From Cystobacter fuscus (GTDB lineage: Bacteria; Myxococcota; Myxococcia; Myxococcales; Myxococcaceae): a stretch of 64,000 nucleotides of DNA. Where the stretch lies: NCBI RefSeq assembly GCF_002305875.1, contig NZ_CP022098.1:11594001-11658000 (forward strand), read 5' to 3'. Positions 3,655 through 13,552 of this stretch are shown one piece after another. Each line of letters begins with the position of its first letter. Positions within the stretch are counted from its first letter, which is position 1. The notes beneath the pieces were generated by a model. It was given only the letters and a program-made list of their open reading frames with translations. It was not told where the DNA came from and did no database searches. The position numbers and the translations under genes were made by a program.

Positions 3655-5303
3655 ATGAAGAGCTTCACGGAACTGCTGCGCCAACTGGCTCGACCGGCCG
3701 TGGTGGAACTGACGCTCATCAGCGGGCGCACACCGCTGGCCAAGACGGCCGCGGGCTTCGAGACGCTGGATGAGGGCCTGCTCACCACGGAGGGACTGCA
3801 GGAGGCGCTCAAGGGGCTGGTGGGTGCCGCGCGCGTCGCCTCGCTCTCCGAGAAGCCCGGGCAGTGGGGCCTGAAGCTGGAGGGCTTCGGTCCGGTGATC
3901 GTCGGCGCCATGCGCCGCGGCGACGTGCTCCACGTGCGCATCCTGCGCGGCGAGCCCCCACCCGCCGCGGCTCCCCCGCCCGCCCCGCCGCCCGCCGCGA
4001 CGGGCAGGCCCGCCCGCGCCGCCGGCATGCAGATCCTCCCCAGCACCGAGCGTCCCGCGCCCGCCGCCGAGCCACCTCCCTCGGTGCCCCCCCCACGGCC
4101 GAGTCCAGGGCCGAGGCCTCCGCGGGGCCCCGGCTCGTCGTGCGGCCCGAGTCCACGGCCAACCTGGCGATGCTCCTGGAAGACGCGCGAAGCGTGGGCG
4201 CGAGCGACCTGCACATCATCGCCGGCCGCCCTCCCCTCTTCCGGCTGGTGGGCGAGCTGCTGCCCCACGGCGCCGCGCTGCCACCCGAGACGGTGGAGAA
4301 GATGCTGCTGCCCCACGTGCCCGACCGGCTGCGCCTCGTGCTCGAGCGCGAGGGAAGCTGTGACTTCGCGCTCGACCTGGGAGCGTCCGGCCGCTTCCGC
4401 GTCAACGTCTCCCGCCAGCGCACCGGCTACAAGGGCAGCTTCCGGCTCATCTCCCGCGAGATTCCCACCCTCGAGTCACTCGGCCTGCCCGCCGACATCG
4501 CCAAGGCCACCCACCACCACCAGGGCCTCATCGTCGTCACCGGCCCCTCGGGCCACGGCAAGACGAGCACGCTCGCGGCCATCGTCGACATCATCAACCG
4601 CGACACCACCCACCACGTGCTCACCGTGGAGGATCCCGTCGAGTACCTCCACCCGCGCAAGAAGGCGCTCCTGAGCCAGCGCGAGGTGGGCACCCACACC
4701 AAGAGCTTCGCCAGCGCCCTCAAGGGCAGCCTGCGCGAGGACCCGGACGTCATCCTCGTGGGCGAGCTGCGCGACACCGAGACGGTGCGCATGGCGCTCG
4801 CCGCGAGCGAGACGGGCCACCTGCTCGTGAGCACCATGAACACCCAGAGCGCCGCGAAGACGATCGACCGGCTCATCGATCTCTTCCCCCCGGGTGACCA
4901 GGCCCAGGTGCGCATGACGCTCGCCAGCAGCTTGCGCCTCATCGTCAGCCAGCGGCTCCTGCCCTCCACGGATGGCAGGAGCCTCGTGGCCGCCGCCGAG
5001 CTGCTGCCCGGCTCGGTCGCGCTCGGCAACCTCATCCGCGACAACAAGACGTTCCAGATTCCCTCGCTGCAACAGCGCGGCAAGAGCCTGGGCATCGTGC
5101 GCTTCGACGACTCGCTCGCCGAGCTGGTGCGCTCGGGCCGCACCACGCTCGAGCACGCGCGCGTCTACGCCGAGAACCCCGACGAGCTGGAGGCCGTGGT
5201 GACGGGCAAGCGCCCCGGCTCGCCTCCCGAGCCCTCGCCGCCCGACGGCTCCAAGCCGCTGCTCTCCAAGATGGGCAACCTCCTCAACCGCAAGAGCGCC
5301 TGA
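3655..5303 (+). pseudogene. PilT-family ATPase with N-terminal extension, frameshifted
   Basis: Two frames together encode one protein. The first (from ATG 3655) gives a roughly 100-residue N-terminal domain starting MKSFTELLRQLARP, then a Pro/Ala linker. At the C8 tract 4087-4094 the sensible reading moves by -1 into a frame encoding a full PilT-like secretion ATPase, with Walker A GPSGHGKTST and Walker B region VILVGELRD. The total of 1649 bases is one short of a multiple of three, as if one C were missing. An ATG at 4170 could still start a separate 377-residue PilT core, almost the length of the next gene. Retraction-type pilus motors are hexameric cytoplasmic ATPases. Sequencing error, real mutation and slippage cannot be separated here. 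Confidence 0.75.
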
Positions 5304-5306
5304 CCC

Positions 5307-6437
5307 ATGAGTTCCTCGAGTGCCTCGCCGCGCATCGCCGCGTTCTTCGACAAGCTCCTCGAGCACAAGGGGAGCGATCTGCACCTGAGCATCGGCCACC
5401 CACCGCTGGGCCGCATCCGCGGTGGACTCCAGCCGCTGCGCGAGGAGCTGCTCACCCAGAGAGAGCTGGAGGCCATGCTCTTCGAGCTCACCAGCCCCGA
5501 GCAGAAGCGCCACATCACCGAGGAGCTGGACCTCGACTTCGCCTACAGCTACGGCACGCGCGCGCGCTTCCGCGCCAACTACTTCTACAAGACGAGCGGC
5601 ATCGCGGCCGTCTTCCGCACCATCCCCAGCCGGGTGCTGTCGCTCGCGGAGCTCAACACGCCCGAGGTGGTGCGCAAGCTCGCCGAGCGCCGCAGCGGCC
5701 TCGTGCTCGTCACCGGCCCCACCGGCAGCGGCAAGTCCACCACGCTCGCGGGGATGATCCACCACATCAACCACACCCGCGCCGCGCACATCCTCACCAT
5801 CGAGGACCCCGTCGAGTTCGTGCACGAATCGGTGAAGTCCCAGGTGACGCACCGCGAGGTGGGCCTGCACGCCTCCAGCTTCGCCACCGCCATCCGCTCG
5901 GCGGGCCGCGAGGACCCCAACGTCATCCTCATCGGCGAGCTGCGCACCAACGAGACCATGAAGCTCGCGCTGCAACTGGCCAGCTACGGCGTGCTCGTCT
6001 TCGCCACCGTGCACACCAACAGCGCGCCGGCCACCATCGACCGCATCATCAACTCCTTCCCCGCCGACGAGCAGCCCCAGGTGCGCGGCATGCTCGCCGA
6101 GGGCCTCGCCGGCATCGTCGCCCAGCAGCTCATCCGCACCGCCGACGGCAAGGGCCGCGTCGCCGCGCTCGAAATCCTCATCGGCACGAGCGCCATCGCC
6201 TCGATGATCCGCGACAACAAGGTGTTCCAGATCGCCAGCAAGATGCAGTCGAGCCAGGGCCTCGGCATGCAGACGCTCGACATGCACCTGGAGCGGCTGG
6301 TGGCCGCCAACACCATCACCCCCGAGGCCGCCCTCGAGAAGGCCCAGGACAAGGAGTCCTTCGCCAAGACGATCCGGCGGCTCAAGCCCGACTTCCAGGT
6401 GTCCGCCGCCGATGGAGGCGAGGCGCTCGGGCACTGA
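5307..6437 (+). CDS. PilT-like twitching motility ATPase
   Basis: A 376-residue member of the PilT/GspE family at the usual PilT length. It has the N-terminal GSDLHLSIG segment, a canonical Walker A GPTGSGKSTT, an Asp box (LTIEDPVEF), and a Walker B region ILIGELR in which the usual GEMRD is replaced by GELRT. The C-terminal SMIRDNKVFQI resembles the PilT AIRNLIRE motif. It starts 3 bases after the stop of the preceding PilT-like frame, so the two are cotranscribed. No other pilus genes are adjacent, suggesting an accessory PilT paralog rather than the main retraction motor. Confidence 0.88.
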   Translation: MSSSSASPRIAAFFDKLLEHKGSDLHLSIGHPPLGRIRGGLQPLREELLTQRELEAMLFELTSPEQKRHITEELDLDFAYSYGTRARFRANYFYKTSGIAAVFRTIPSRVLSLAELNTPEVVRKLAERRSGLVLVTGPTGSGKSTTLAGMIHHINHTRAAHILTIEDPVEFVHESVKSQVTHREVGLHASSFATAIRSAGREDPNVILIGELRTNETMKLALQLASYGVLVFATVHTNSAPATIDRIINSFPADEQPQVRGMLAEGLAGIVAQQLIRTADGKGRVAALEILIGTSAIASMIRDNKVFQIASKMQSSQGLGMQTLDMHLERLVAANTITPEAALEKAQDKESFAKTIRRLKPDFQVSAADGGEALGH

Positions 6438-8471: not shown

Positions 8472-8749
8472 GGAAGGATAACAACCACCCCTCCGTCCGT
8501 CGGGTTTTGTACCCGCGTTCCCGGGCCGCTCGCCTGGGGAGCATGACGCCCCGCCTGGAGCCCGGTTTCAGGCGGAGAGAGGGAGCGTGGCGCGCCCCCG
8601 CGTGGGGCGCTCGCGGATGAGCCGCGGCATGGCCTCCACGCACGAGCGAGACACCGGGCGGACCGCGACTCGAGCGGGTGCCGGGAGGATCCCTCCAGGG
8701 ACATCATTCACCCCGAGCGCGGAAATTCTTGCACCCCCCGAAAAGTCCC
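8472..8749. other. Non-coding stretch upstream of repeat copy 1
   Basis: This is the shared upstream region of the helicase gene (reverse). It is GC-rich, contains no convincing ORF on either strand, and I see no clear sigma70 promoter in it. Confidence 0.4.
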
Positions 8750-8754
8750 TTTCC

Positions 8755-8765
8755 GTAAGTCTTAC
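8755..8765. promoter_or_regulatory. Palindrome, candidate enhancer site (copy 1)
   Basis: GTAAG-T-CTTAC is a perfect inverted repeat, identical in the second element copy. Its centre is 108 bases before the predicted start of transcription, within the usual range for an enhancer bound by an NtrC-type activator of sigma54 promoters. The protein is unknown. Confidence 0.45.
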
Positions 8766-8841
8766 TGCCCCTCAGTACAATGTCAGAACCAAACACTTCC
8801 CAACCCATTGGAATCATGGGGTTTTTCTCCCATCTGGCCCA

Positions 8842-8858
8842 TGGCATGCGGACTGCTA
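8842..8858 (+). promoter_or_regulatory. Candidate sigma54 (-24/-12) promoter, copy 1
   Basis: TGGCATGCGGACTGCTA has the invariant GG and GC at exactly the sigma54 spacing (consensus TGGCAY-N5-TTGCW). The only core deviation is C for the first T of the -12 box. The same box, with two differences, occurs at the same place in copy 2. Predicted start is about 8868. Confidence 0.55.
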
Positions 8859-8867
8859 TGGACCCCA

Positions 8868-9125
8868 GGCAGGACGGGCGGGTCGAGGACCAGCAGGTCG
8901 GGGCAGGACGGGCGGATTCGGGGTCGGGGCGGGACGGGCGGATTCGGGGTCGGGGCGGGACGGCGAGGACGGGGCAGGACGGGCGGGGTCGGGGCGGACA
9001 GGTTTTCGAGTGGGGTCGAGCAGTACGGGGGCAGTGCATCACGGCAGCAACACTACGGGGGTAGTGGGTAGGAAGAGTGCGTCGGGGGGGATCCGCTGGG
9101 GGCGGATCCTCCCCGATTCTTTTTT
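8868..9125 (+). ncRNA. Predicted G-rich structured small RNA or leader, copy 1
   Basis: The inferred transcript of about 258 bases runs from the sigma54-like promoter to a T-run. It contains CAGGACG at 8870, 8904 and 8975 within G-rich repeats. A hairpin CACTAC-GGGG-GTAGTG spans 9051-9066, and a 16-bp terminator hairpin with loop TGGGG follows. No frame gives a plausible protein; the translations are Gly/Arg low-complexity. It may be a trans-acting RNA, or an attenuating leader for the epoxide hydrolase gene that starts 69 bases after the terminator. Confidence 0.5.
9081..9125 (+). terminator. Intrinsic terminator, copy 1
   Basis: A 16-bp stem (9081-9096 with 9102-9117, two G.T pairs) and loop TGGGG are followed by TCTTTTTT. 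The upper stem sequence differs from copy 2 but pairing is kept. Confidence 0.8.
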
Positions 9126-9193
9126 GGCGTCTTCCACTCGCGGCCCGCGTGGCACGGTGAATCGAGAAGGTCCTCTCTCTTCCCAGGAGTCCC

Positions 9194-10330
9194 ATGTCTC
9201 CGCGTCCCTTTCGCATCGATGTGCCCCAGGCCGTGCTCACGGATCTTCAACGCCGCCTGGAGGCCACGCGCTTCCCCGAGCCGCTGCCCGGTGAGCCCTG
9301 GCAGCGCGGCGCCGATGTCGCCTATGTCCGCGAGCTGTGCGCGTACTGGCGTGAGCGCTACGACTGGCGCAAGCACGAGGCCGAGCTCAACCGCTTCCCT
9401 CAATTCCTGTGCGAGGTGGAGGGCGTGGACCTCCACTTCTGGCACGTCCGGGGCAAGGGCCCGTCTCCTTTGCCACTCTTGCTGACGCACGGCTGGCCCG
9501 GCTCCATCTACGAGTTCCATCACCTCATCGAGCCGCTGACGGACCCCGCCGCGTACGGAGGCGACGCCCGGGACGCCTTCGACGTGATCATCCCCGCGCT
9601 GCCCGGCTATGGCTTCAGCGGCAAGCCGCGCGAGCCGGGCTGGGATGCCACGCGCGTGGCCGCCGTGTTCGACCGGCTCATGGTCGAGCACCTGGGCTAC
9701 TCCCGCTATGGGGCGCAGGGCGGTGATTGGGGAGGCGTCGTCACCACGGCGCTCGGGGTGGAGCACGCCGAGCACCTGGTGGGCATCCATCTCAACTTCG
9801 CCCTCGCGTCGCCGCCGCCCGGACAGGAGCAGAGCGAGCTGGCGCGGGAGTATGGCCAGAAGATGGCGGCGTTCTCCGCCGCCGAGAGCGGCTACAGCCA
9901 CGTGCAGGGCACCAAGCCCATGTCGCTGGGCATCGGGCAGGCGGATTCCCCCGCGGGGCTCGCCGCGTGGATCGTCGAGAAGTTCCGCACCTGGAGCGAT
10001 TGTGGCGGGGACGTCGAGCGCGCCTTCTCCAAGGACTGGCTGCTGACGAACCTGATGTTCTACTGGGCGCCCAACAGCATCGCGAGCGCGGCCAACCTCT
10101 ATTACGAGACCTTCGGCATGCAGCGCCTGGACTTGAAGAAGCCGGTGCGCGTGCCCACGGCGATCGCGGACTTCCCCAAGGAGCTCACCCACACGCCCCG
10201 GCCCTGGTTGGAGGCGCGCTTCAACCTGCGGCGCTACACGGAGATGCCGCGAGGGGGCCACTTCGCCGCCGCGGAACAGCCGGAACTGTTCCTGAAGGAC
10301 GTCCGCTCGTTCTTCCGGGAGCTTCGCTAG
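9194..10330 (+). CDS. Epoxide hydrolase, alpha/beta-hydrolase fold with EHN domain
   Basis: A 378-residue enzyme. The N-terminal 110 residues are the EHN-type domain of microsomal-like epoxide hydrolases (FRIDVPQAVLTDLQRRL). The alpha/beta-hydrolase core follows, with oxyanion HGWPGS, nucleophile Asp in GGDWGG and catalytic His in GGHFAA. It should hydrate epoxides to diols in the cytoplasm; the substrate is unknown. AGGAG lies just before the ATG. The gene stands alone between two copies of a repeated element, and copy 1 carries an apparent terminator only 69 bases upstream, so expression may depend on read-through. Confidence 0.9.
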   Translation: MSPRPFRIDVPQAVLTDLQRRLEATRFPEPLPGEPWQRGADVAYVRELCAYWRERYDWRKHEAELNRFPQFLCEVEGVDLHFWHVRGKGPSPLPLLLTHGWPGSIYEFHHLIEPLTDPAAYGGDARDAFDVIIPALPGYGFSGKPREPGWDATRVAAVFDRLMVEHLGYSRYGAQGGDWGGVVTTALGVEHAEHLVGIHLNFALASPPPGQEQSELAREYGQKMAAFSAAESGYSHVQGTKPMSLGIGQADSPAGLAAWIVEKFRTWSDCGGDVERAFSKDWLLTNLMFYWAPNSIASAANLYYETFGMQRLDLKKPVRVPTAIADFPKELTHTPRPWLEARFNLRRYTEMPRGGHFAAAEQPELFLKDVRSFFRELR

Positions 10331-10352
10331 GAAACCGGGGGAAGTTTCTCCC

Positions 10353-10367
10353 CGGTAAGTCTTACCG
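10353..10367. promoter_or_regulatory. Palindrome, candidate enhancer site (copy 2)
   Basis: CGGTAAG-T-CTTACCG is a perfect 7+1+7 palindrome centred at 10360, about 106 bases before the predicted transcription start. That is nearly the same offset as copy 1 (108). Confidence 0.45.
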
Positions 10368-10439
10368 CTCCCGGACGGGCTCCCGGCCCCCGCTCCACAT
10401 AACCCCCCGAAATCACGGCCTCATCTCCCACGAGCACGC

Positions 10440-10456
10440 TGGCATTCGGACTGCAA
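10440..10456 (+). promoter_or_regulatory. Candidate sigma54 (-24/-12) promoter, copy 2
   Basis: TGGCATTCGGACTGCAA has GG at -25/-24 and GC at -13/-12 with correct spacing and the downstream AA. Predicted start is about 10466. Confidence 0.55.
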
Positions 10457-10465
10457 TAGCCCTCT

Positions 10466-10687
10466 GGCACGAAGTCGGGATGAGGCAGCACGGGGCGGTA
10501 CGGGGCAGGACGGGCGGGTCGGGAAGTACGGGGCAGGACGGGCGGGTCGGGGTCGGGAAAGACAACCATTTCAGGGGGAGAAGGAGTCGAACGGGGGCAG
10601 TACGGGGAGCGCCACTTGGGGAAGTGGCGCAAGCAAAGTGAGTCGGGGAGGAGCTGCTGGGGAGCGGCTCCTCCCCGATTCCTTTTT
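10466..10687 (+). ncRNA. Predicted G-rich structured small RNA or leader, copy 2
   Basis: The inferred RNA of about 222 bases has CAGGACG at 10506 and 10534 in G-rich repeats. A perfect 9-bp hairpin GCGCCACTT-GGGG-AAGTGGCGC spans 10609-10630, followed by a 17-bp terminator hairpin. Compared with copy 1, the penultimate hairpin has a wholly different stem but the same GGGG loop, and the terminator stem has compensating changes. This is what selection on RNA structure would leave. The nearest downstream gene starts 230 bases later. Confidence 0.5.
10641..10687 (+). terminator. Intrinsic terminator, copy 2
   Basis: A 17-bp stem (10641-10657 with 10664-10680) closes a TGGGGA loop and is followed by CCTTTTT. 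The pairing is almost uninterrupted, with two G.T pairs. Confidence 0.8.
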
Positions 10688-10917
10688 GGCCTCCCTTTGC
10701 ATGCCGCCCGCGCGGCGCGGTGAAGCTCCCTTCATTTCGTCTTGTCCCCATCTAAGCCAGTTCTGGCTCAGATAGGTCCCTTGCTGGAACGTCTCGCACC
10801 AAGCCCAATGTCCATTGATGGAGCCGCTCCCCTACATCCAGAAATCCACAAGTGGTGAACGGTTATCGTCTAACATGTAATATGCCGTGCTCAACGGATG
10901 CTTCAGAATGGGACTAA

Positions 10918-12382: not shown

Positions 12383-13552
12383 ATGCTTACTTCTGCGGTC
12401 ATGCGTAAGCCTCGCCTTGATGACCAGCAGGTGCATACCTTTCTGGAGTCCCTCTTCGAAGAAGACCTGCACGCCAAGCGCGTGTTGTCCCTGGCCTACG
12501 CGGTCCTGGGTGTCATTCACGCTGCCAGCCTGGGGGTTCATCTCATTGGCAAAGCCCTGGCGTGGGCGCGAGGCACCAAGAGCAAGCATGGGGTGAAGCA
12601 GGTGGACCGGCTCTTGTCCAACCAAGGGATTGATGTCTGGGCGCTGTTCGCACAGTGGGTGCCCTTTGCCTTGGGACAGAGAAGCGAGGCACTGGTGGCG
12701 CTGGACTGGACGGACTTCGATGCGGATGGGCAGACAACGCTGGTGGCGTCGTTGGTGGCGAGCCATGGACGCACGACGCCCCTGGTCTGGCTCACGGTGG
12801 AGAAGTCCGCCTTGGAGGGGATGCGCAATGACGTTGAGGATTTCGTACTCAATCGACTGCGGCAGGTGGTGCCCGAGCGGGTGCGGCTCACACTACTGGC
12901 CGACCGGGGCTTTGGAGACCAGAAGTTCTATGCGCTGCTCGAGCAACTGAAGTTTGACTACGTGGTGCGCTTCCGTCAGTGCATTCAAGTGATGGATGAG
13001 ACGGGAGAGAAGAAGAGCGCGGGCGAGTGGGTGCCCGAATCGGGCCGGGCGGTGCGCATGGTGGGAGCGCGAGTCACCCAGGACGAAGCGCCCGTGGGGG
13101 CTGTGGTGTGCGTGAAGCAGAAGGGAATGAAGGAGGCGTGGTGCCTGGCGACGAGCTTGAAAGAAGCGACGGCGGCCTTCGTGGTGGGGCTGTATGGCAA
13201 GAGGTTTCGAACGGAGGAAACCTTCCGCGACATGAAGGACTTGCGTTTTGGAATGGGCCTGTCGTCGGTGAGGGTCCGCTCGACGGAGAGGCGGGACCGG
13301 CTGCTGTTGGTGAGCGCGCTGGCCTGCGCATTGCTGACGCTGCTGGGGGCGGCGGGGGAGAGCTTGGGGATGGAGCGCTACCTCAAAGCCAACACAGTGA
13401 AGACGCGCACCTACTCCCTCTTCCGGCAGGGCTGTGAGTATTACCAGGCCATCCCGATGATGCCGGAGGAGCAGCTCGTCCCGCTGATGAAGCGATTCGC
13501 TTCGCTGTTACGTGAACAGCCAGTTTTTCAGGAATTTCTCGGCCCAATATGA
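12383..13552 (+). CDS. IS4-family DDE transposase
   Basis: A 389-residue transposase, full length for the family. The catalytic triad is visible: Asp in LDWTDFD (about 108-111), Asp in LLADRGF (174), and Glu in YGKRFRTEETFRDMKD (about 278), the Y-R-E-K signature of IS4 transposases. It cuts and reinserts its own element. No frameshift or stop interrupts it, so the copy may be active. The gene fills nearly all of the element and ends inside the right inverted repeat. A start at MRKPRLDD, six codons in, is possible. Confidence 0.92.
   Translation: MLTSAVMRKPRLDDQQVHTFLESLFEEDLHAKRVLSLAYAVLGVIHAASLGVHLIGKALAWARGTKSKHGVKQVDRLLSNQGIDVWALFAQWVPFALGQRSEALVALDWTDFDADGQTTLVASLVASHGRTTPLVWLTVEKSALEGMRNDVEDFVLNRLRQVVPERVRLTLLADRGFGDQKFYALLEQLKFDYVVRFRQCIQVMDETGEKKSAGEWVPESGRAVRMVGARVTQDEAPVGAVVCVKQKGMKEAWCLATSLKEATAAFVVGLYGKRFRTEETFRDMKDLRFGMGLSSVRVRSTERRDRLLLVSALACALLTLLGAAGESLGMERYLKANTVKTRTYSLFRQGCEYYQAIPMMPEEQLVPLMKRFASLLREQPVFQEFLGPI

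Follow-up and report, generated by a model that had tools for sequence, protein, structure and literature searches.

What is made by two elements that repeat the same promoter-like, G-rich and terminator-like parts on either side of one gene? The elements lie at positions 8750-9163 and 10351-10725 of a 64,000-nt stretch of the Cystobacter fuscus genome (here called the window; positions refer to it unless a locus is named) and flank an epoxide hydrolase gene. A first-pass annotation read them as two copies of an undescribed family of sigma54-dependent small RNA (sRNA) genes, with a palindrome, a -24/-12 box, G-rich repeats, a GGGG-loop hairpin and a T-run terminator in that order. Every one of these parts is present in both copies, and the family extends further, with 53 terminators in 14 genomes from three genera; the window itself has no Rfam gathering match. 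Judged by sequence, a conserved unit with a fixed promoter grammar, a covarying terminator and no conserved coding capacity is present in three genera among 145 genomes, and the elements very probably form a real family of sigma54 non-coding RNA genes. As a whole they are probably best explained as activator-controlled, multi-copy titrator RNA units; that the RNA acts by titrating some ligand is a tentative proposal.

Two similar elements in the window

Both elements are on the forward strand. In copy 1 the palindromic site GTAAGTCTTAC (8755-8765), a proposed enhancer-binding-protein site, is followed by a mid element AACCCATTGGAATCA resembling a reverse-complement IHF site (8802-8816) and by a sigma54 -24/-12 box ATGGCATGCGGACTGCT (8841-8857, with the core TGGCATN5CTGC at 8842-8856). 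The predicted start (~8868), leader and G-rich tandem array, which has G-quadruplex potential, occupy 8868-9045. A hairpin scan found CACTAC-GGGG-GTAGTG at 9051-9066, and the predicted intrinsic terminator, with a GGGG-containing loop and a T-run, is at 9081-9126 (stem 9081-9117). Copy 2 has the same exact palindrome GTAAGTCTTAC (10355-10365), an IHF-like mid element TAACCCCCCGAAATCAC (10400-10416), the box CTGGCATTCGGACTGCA (10439-10455, core at 10440-10454), a predicted start (~10466) with leader and G-rich array (10466-10600), the hairpin GCGCCACTT-GGGG-AAGTGGCGC (10609-10630, hairpin scan) and an intrinsic terminator with T-run (10640-10687, stem 10640-10681). Both predicted starts are ~12 nt past the GC of the -12 element, and the RNA is predicted to be ~259 nt long for copy 1 and ~222 nt for copy 2. 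The copies align with 297 identities over 363 aligned positions, with the gaps within the arrays. Tandem repeat analysis gives a 26-bp unit with 97% match in copy 1 (8896-8963) and a 28-bp unit with 100% match in copy 2 (10498-10551).

The palindrome occurs twice in the window and never in 100 shuffles, as does the palindrome followed by the box at the observed spacing, and TGGCATN5CTGC, for which the annotation had claimed correct sigma54 spacing, occurs twice against 0.20 expected. The palindrome is 106-108 nt before the predicted start in both copies, as that annotation had it.

Conservation was assessed against two relatives of the same genus (G033 and G032). In copy 1 the palindrome, hairpin and terminator are unchanged (identity 1.00), followed by the box (0.97), the leader and array (0.88), the mid element (0.84), the spacers (0.73-0.74) and the upstream intergenic DNA (0.59); the hairpin region 9052-9067 is identical in both relatives. 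DNA directly downstream of copy 1 is also conserved (0.93), yet it precedes the epoxide hydrolase start. In copy 2 the palindrome is again unchanged (1.00); identity is 0.98 in the hairpin, 0.97 in the box, 0.94 in both the mid element and the terminator, 0.84 in the leader and array, 0.80-0.84 in the spacers and 0.23 downstream. Array length changes between close relatives.

Distribution of the family

The C. fuscus genome (12.35 Mb, a single contig) was searched by similarity with copy 2 as the query. Matches with E < 1e-3 were found at five further places (51 matches at E up to 10, mostly weak). Three of these (L031, L033 and L034) share the build of the window elements, here called type A, so that this genome has five type A copies, two of them in the window. 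The other two (L032 and L035), called type B, have G-rich arrays and a sigma54 box and a different end. Weak query matches at L036-L040 resemble coding DNA by eye and were rejected.

A covariance model (R1) built from the terminators of these five type A copies finds a match at E up to 0.1 in 29 of 96 genomes of the bacterial family. Over 145 genomes of the order it gives 53 matches at E up to 1e-5, the five model sequences included, in 14 genomes with 2-9 matches per carrier. Carriers are all four genomes of the same genus (g1), all six of a second genus (g3, including Archangium lansinium MIWBW and Archangium violaceum Cb vi76) and four of seven of a third (g7), while none of the other 43 genera among the 145 genomes has a match at this threshold. 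Thus, the search of relatives suggested in the annotation did yield further copies, so that the refuting outcome named there did not occur, and a near-consensus sigma54 box precedes 48 of the 53. Type A loci are syntenic within genera: the window pair is found in three g1 genomes, with one related locus in the fourth (G034), and the epoxide hydrolase arrangement is the same in two same-genus relatives.

Weaker candidates were not retained. None of nine weak terminator matches examined in other genera has a sigma54 box upstream, and four of them (L126-L129, genus g19) lie ~22 nt past a conserved reading frame and look like ordinary gene terminators. Single pattern matches in two Mesorhizobium records and one Nocardioidaceae metagenome-assembled genome have neither box nor G-rich array upstream and appear to be chance. 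The box-plus-array pattern alone is unspecific, as it matches 68 of the 96 genomes and a reversed control equals or exceeds it in many. Among its matches, near-consensus boxes followed by the family leader were seen by eye in g1, g3 and g7. A few near-consensus boxes occur in g19 too (for example in G059, G062, G066, G073 and G077).

Promoter organisation

A TGGCAY-N6-TGC box, often CTGGCACGCGGGATGCT, with GG and GC at sigma54 spacing, lies within 520 nt upstream of 48 of the 53 strong terminator matches. For comparison, this expression has a frequency of 0.012 per 520 nt across the window, counting the two elements themselves, and of 0.007 in control loci. Upstream of the box, 27 of the 48 promoters carry the 11-mer GTAAGNCTTAC, which is the palindrome with its middle base free, at a nearly fixed distance of 86 nt (16 copies), 85 nt (8) or 84 nt (3), and the remaining 21 aligned promoters have a degenerate form at the palindrome position. 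A third conserved block lies between palindrome and box, with the consensus TAANCCCTTGAAATCAC over the 48 aligned promoters; it resembles, with one mismatch, the IHF consensus of E. coli in reverse complement, and the IHF site is putative. By eye the same block is present at type B promoters and at those of Pxr, a known sRNA of myxobacteria (see below), and therefore appears to be a common feature of the sigma54 promoters in these genomes. An activator site, a bend and a box make up the textbook layout of an activator-dependent sigma54 promoter, and the sequences are consistent with the annotation in this respect as well.

The exact palindrome is largely private to the family. There are 31 sites in 21 genomes, of which 27 are at promoters of this family (26 with a terminator among the 53, and one cut by a contig end in G032), and all four exact palindromes of the C. 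fuscus genome sit at these elements. No site was found in the seven non-carrier genomes searched, and one carrier, G007, is without any exact copy. The other four sites, one per carrier g7 genome (L189:3505, L190:3417, L191:3560 and L192:3587), come directly after a frame that by eye resembles glutaredoxin, and no sigma54 box is visible there.

Five terminator matches are without a box within 520 nt. Four of them form a g7 subtype, type C, and the fifth is the second G034 copy in L101. A promoter-only model (R2) places a promoter ~1 kb and ~0.8 kb upstream of two type C copies (L175 and L176), with a G-rich array between; these loci have G-rich arrays of 0.8-1 kb between a sigma54 promoter and a type A-like terminator. 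For the other two (G036 and G038) the contigs end beside the promoter match and beside the terminator, and we infer that the two are linked. Separately, a promoter-model match with GTAATTCTTAC, the mid element and a sigma54 box occurs on the minus strand in L180 and L182 (G037:C1:6237209-6237311 and G035:C2:1170118-1170220), with a match of the same score in G036 and G038. It precedes a membrane-protein gene that by eye resembles O-antigen ligase; this regulon may therefore include a protein-coding gene in g7.

Type B copy DNA matches in 15 of 16 genomes searched, although G-rich arrays of other types match too. Among 14 chosen type B loci in g1, g3 and g7 (L217, L218 and L205-L216), 13 have a -24/-12 box, starting TCGGCAC in 10 of these, and the fourteenth is cut by a contig end. 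By eye, all 13 have the mid element and, ~95 nt before the box, a T-rich element, for example TTTTTTACAGGA or TTTTTCCGG. A 3' hairpin of the GCCGGTCCTCG..CGAGGACCGG kind is seen in 11 of these 14 loci and a variant of it in L214; the view covers the 3' end in all but L213 and L215. Since the upstream element of type B is different, at least two activators may drive G-array RNAs.

Anatomy of the predicted RNA

The stretch from predicted start to terminator is 47-299 nt over the 48 copies (~0.8-1 kb in type C). By eye, a partly conserved leader is followed by the G-run array and then often by the motif CUUCGGGGGNAGU. Across the 48 arrays, G content is 48-62% and C content 11-22%. Their G4Hunter scores (median 1.52) all exceed the maximum of 6292 overlapping background windows of the 64-kb window (1.02), and a canonical G-quadruplex motif is found in 47 of 48 arrays against 12 of 752 background windows. 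Folding that permits quadruplexes is predicted to lower the energy by 11-59 kcal/mol in all five own-genome type A arrays.

Of the 48 copies, 27 contain a hairpin with a loop of four or five starting GGGG and at least five pairs (G-U allowed); 200 shuffles gave 10.8 on average and never more than 18. Raising the minimum to six pairs leaves 20 of 48 (mean 4.5, maximum 12 in 100 shuffles). The loop stays GGGG and the stems vary by locus, for example CACTAC/GTAGTG, GCGCCACTT/AAGTGGCGC, TGCACTC/GAGTGCA and CACTTC/GAAGTG. The hairpin described in the annotation is therefore real in both window copies, although as a family trait it holds in perfect form for only about half (27/48).

The terminators have the GC stem, T-run and compensatory changes of intrinsic terminator-ended sRNAs. 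In 52 sequences (50 distinct), 99.5% of pair cells are standard, five of 15 pairs are changed on both sides, and 24 cells are changed on both sides against 3.6 in shuffles, while slid controls are 42-66% paired. These counts come from a structure-fitted alignment, which leans towards structure, and related sequences can exceed shuffles.

Proposed mechanism

From this organisation we infer transcription, a dedicated activator, IHF action, quadruplex formation and titration, as follows. Each element would be transcribed on its own into a non-coding RNA, from a sigma54 promoter that depends on an activator. An enhancer-binding protein would bind GTAAGTCTTAC, ~106-108 nt ahead of the start, the DNA would be bent at the mid element by IHF or a protein like it, sigma54 polymerase would fire from the -24/-12 box, and the terminator would end transcription. 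The RNA would then act in trans as a titrator, its repeated, G-quadruplex-capable G-runs binding many copies of one ligand, either a protein that binds RNA or an RNA rich in C. Once the activator is on, having several copies at scattered sites would increase the dose and allow it to be tuned. A titrator fits best because the repeat number varies between conserved ends, the copies are many and dispersed, and the activator site is shared. A wider version is possible though rather doubtful: the G-quadruplex-array RNAs of the three myxobacterial genera would form a superfamily spread over two or more parallel sigma54 regulons, where GTAAGTCTTAC and the GGGG-loop terminator mark type A and the T-rich element and the GCCGGTCCTCG hairpin mark type B, and would titrate a dedicated ligand without CsrA.

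Several observations weigh against the titrator model. Predicted pairing of the arrays with Pxr of the same genome is no better than that of dinucleotide shuffles, and CsrA, the best-known titrated protein of such a kind, is found in none of the 96 genomes. The perfect GGGG-loop hairpin is missing in about half of the copies, and G-rich arrays may drift through repeat slippage without selection. The second G034 copy in L101 is one of 53 without a promoter found. Finally, the next gene is co-directional in 33 of 48 cases, so that some copies may act as leaders.

Alternative explanations

One alternative gives the RNA a more specific role, as a trans-acting antisense or sponge whose targets are C-rich small RNAs and chiefly Pxr. 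By pairing with the Pxr C7 loop, the GGGG loops and arrays would lift its block on fruiting-body development. The own-genome Pxr loop has seven C, the recurrent motif CUUCGGGGGAAG is complementary to part of it, and the predicted pairing with the first pxr copy involves the C7 loop in six of seven own-genome RNAs folded; by eye, pxr-like sequence is seen in g7 too (L178 and L181). However, for the five own-genome type A arrays, 39, 38, 12, 31 and 25 of 40 dinucleotide shuffles were as good or better, many g3 copies carry GGGGGUAG or GGGGGCAG instead, losing part of the match, and Pxr is known from Myxococcus in the papers, whereas matches to the type A terminator were confined to three genera. 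Such a sponge is therefore unlikely. Action in the DNA itself also appears improbable. Here, sigma54-driven transcription through the array would form R-loops or G-quadruplexes that affect recombination or local supercoiling, for which a G-quadruplex-linked sRNA at pilE of Neisseria gonorrhoeae is a reported precedent (PMC3547852). The strong G skew of the RNA-like strand and the quadruplex potential, common to all 48 arrays, and their changing lengths would fit, yet the compensatory terminator changes and the recurrence of the GGGG-loop hairpin on different stems speak for an RNA product, and the copies adjoin unrelated genes. A mobile or passively copied repeat without function would account for multiple dispersed copies with a tandem-repeat core; it is very unlikely given that promoter parts, hairpin and terminator are conserved while spacers diverge, and that spacing is fixed at 84-86 nt.

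The genomic setting bears on whether the elements are cis-acting leaders or attenuators of downstream genes. With rough gene calling, the next gene downstream is co-directional in 33 of the 48 copies, for example rpiA after L034 and the epoxide hydrolase gene after copy 1, and it is convergent in 15. The 24 neighbour proteins scanned differ in kind (epoxide hydrolase, rpiA, SDR, TetR regulator, histidine-kinase-like protein, cyclophilin, DUF1826 and others). Because the neighbours are unrelated and 15 are convergent, a cis leader is not a general explanation; the terminator would also end the unit before the next gene, and this reading is unlikely overall. Lastly, long glycine/arginine-rich frames cross the arrays and could in principle encode a short protein: 94, 87 and 235 amino acids (+) and 178 (-) in copy 1, and 304 (+), 112 and 101 (-) in copy 2. 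Such frames are expected in G-rich, T-poor DNA. ATG is missing in 30 of 48 arrays (GTG and TTG starts are outside this count), and indels of 1, 10 and 26 nt, plus one of 15, separate the window arrays from their counterparts in relatives. The arrays do not look coding, in agreement with the annotation, and a protein product is extremely unlikely.

Around the elements, the epoxide hydrolase gene (9194-10330, +; Pfam EHN and Abhydrolase_1) is a conserved neighbour outside the RNA genes, and a YoaA-like helicase gene lies upstream of the pair. An IS4-family transposase gene (12383-13552, +) is ~1.7 kb past copy 2, and two adjoining frames at 3864-6437 (+) resemble, by eye, PilT-type ATPases of twitching motility.

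Implications

Pxr, a checkpoint of multicellular development, is the only characterised myxobacterial sigma54-linked sRNA found in the literature searched, as far as the available parts of the papers go, and the passage of a review available here mentions tens of non-coding RNAs from M. xanthus RNA-seq. As a second, larger sRNA family with its own activator site and 2-9 copies per carrier, the elements would be a new regulatory layer in bacteria with very large genomes. In the wider version of the titrator model they would represent a class of bacterial regulatory RNA in which repeated G-runs or quadruplexes titrate a dedicated ligand. The family would also offer a natural test of whether these act as titrators in bacteria without CsrA. 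Given the fixed promoter grammar, finding the activator and deleting every copy should be straightforward.

Comparison with known systems

No Rfam family reaches its gathering score in the window. For window positions 8700-10750, a search at E up to 1 gives three chance-level matches (mir-207, mir-761 and RT-13), far below gathering score, and none to Pxr (RF01812), so identity with Pxr was rejected; seven further loci at E up to 0.01 match nothing but Pxr. Pxr itself is the known sigma54-linked sRNA of myxobacteria (PMC5568312, PMC5684412, PMC10217877, PMC11928866), and in the parts of these papers available it is given a predicted sigma54 promoter with an upstream activator region. The C. 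fuscus genome has five tandem pxr genes at L171:4318-5726 (G000:C1:1721317-1722725), found via the promoter model, with Rfam E values of 1.3e-12 to 3.3e-8, one above and four below gathering score; copies 2-5 are identical in predicted RNA. This is more than the three tandem paralogs per strain that the available text reports in two Cystobacter species (PMC5568312). A 30-nt Pxr stem-loop pattern from published primers has no match in the C. fuscus genome, presumably as its own pxr genes differ in sequence.

The elements resemble pxr as non-coding RNA genes of the same bacterial group with a sigma54 promoter, upstream activator region, terminator hairpin and paralogs, and in the mid element, which is also seen at pxr by eye. 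They differ in build: Pxr is a 109-position model with a C-rich first loop and no G-rich array, while the 48 arrays, only 11-22% C, have no such C-rich first stem-loop. The pxr genes are tandem and the type A elements dispersed. The pxr genes follow histidine kinase and NtrC-like regulator frames (by eye; pxrK and pxrR by position) whereas the elements flank an epoxide hydrolase gene, and four of five own-genome pxr copies have, by eye, the upstream palindrome TTTCACATGTGAAA and not GTAAGTCTTAC.

The Qrr sRNAs are sigma54-dependent, base-pairing RNAs that are not known to carry G-rich arrays. In the source as available, Qrr1-5 of Vibrio are several sRNA copies under one regulatory pathway (PMC8043402), which is the point of likeness, and no Rfam relation to them was found. 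CsrB and RsmZ are also built of repeated short G-containing motifs, whereas the core repeat here is the G-run; csrB, according to the available part of one source, can be multi-copy (PMC6262261). CAGGACG, present in some copies, presumably equals one form of the CsrB repeat and suggested a CsrB-like sponge. However, an AGGA-type motif is not in every copy, as several have none, for example L033 and L034 of the own genome and the five g7 arrays counted. CsrA (PF02599) is absent from all 96 genomes, with controls positive in 3 of 14, E. coli included, and a CsrB-type sponge was therefore rejected. We know of no sigma54 family for the quadruplex-linked sRNA of pilE. That locus of N. gonorrhoeae differs in being cis-acting, with small non-coding transcription linked to a guanine-quartet sequence and pilin variation in the part of the report available (PMC3547852). 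The family is not described in the literature found by a search that left the M. xanthus survey (Whitworth and Swain, 2020) and most subscription papers outside its reach. Thus, sigma54-controlled multi-copy sRNAs are a known kind, represented by Qrr and Pxr, and to these the present elements appear to add a new G-array build and a new promoter site.

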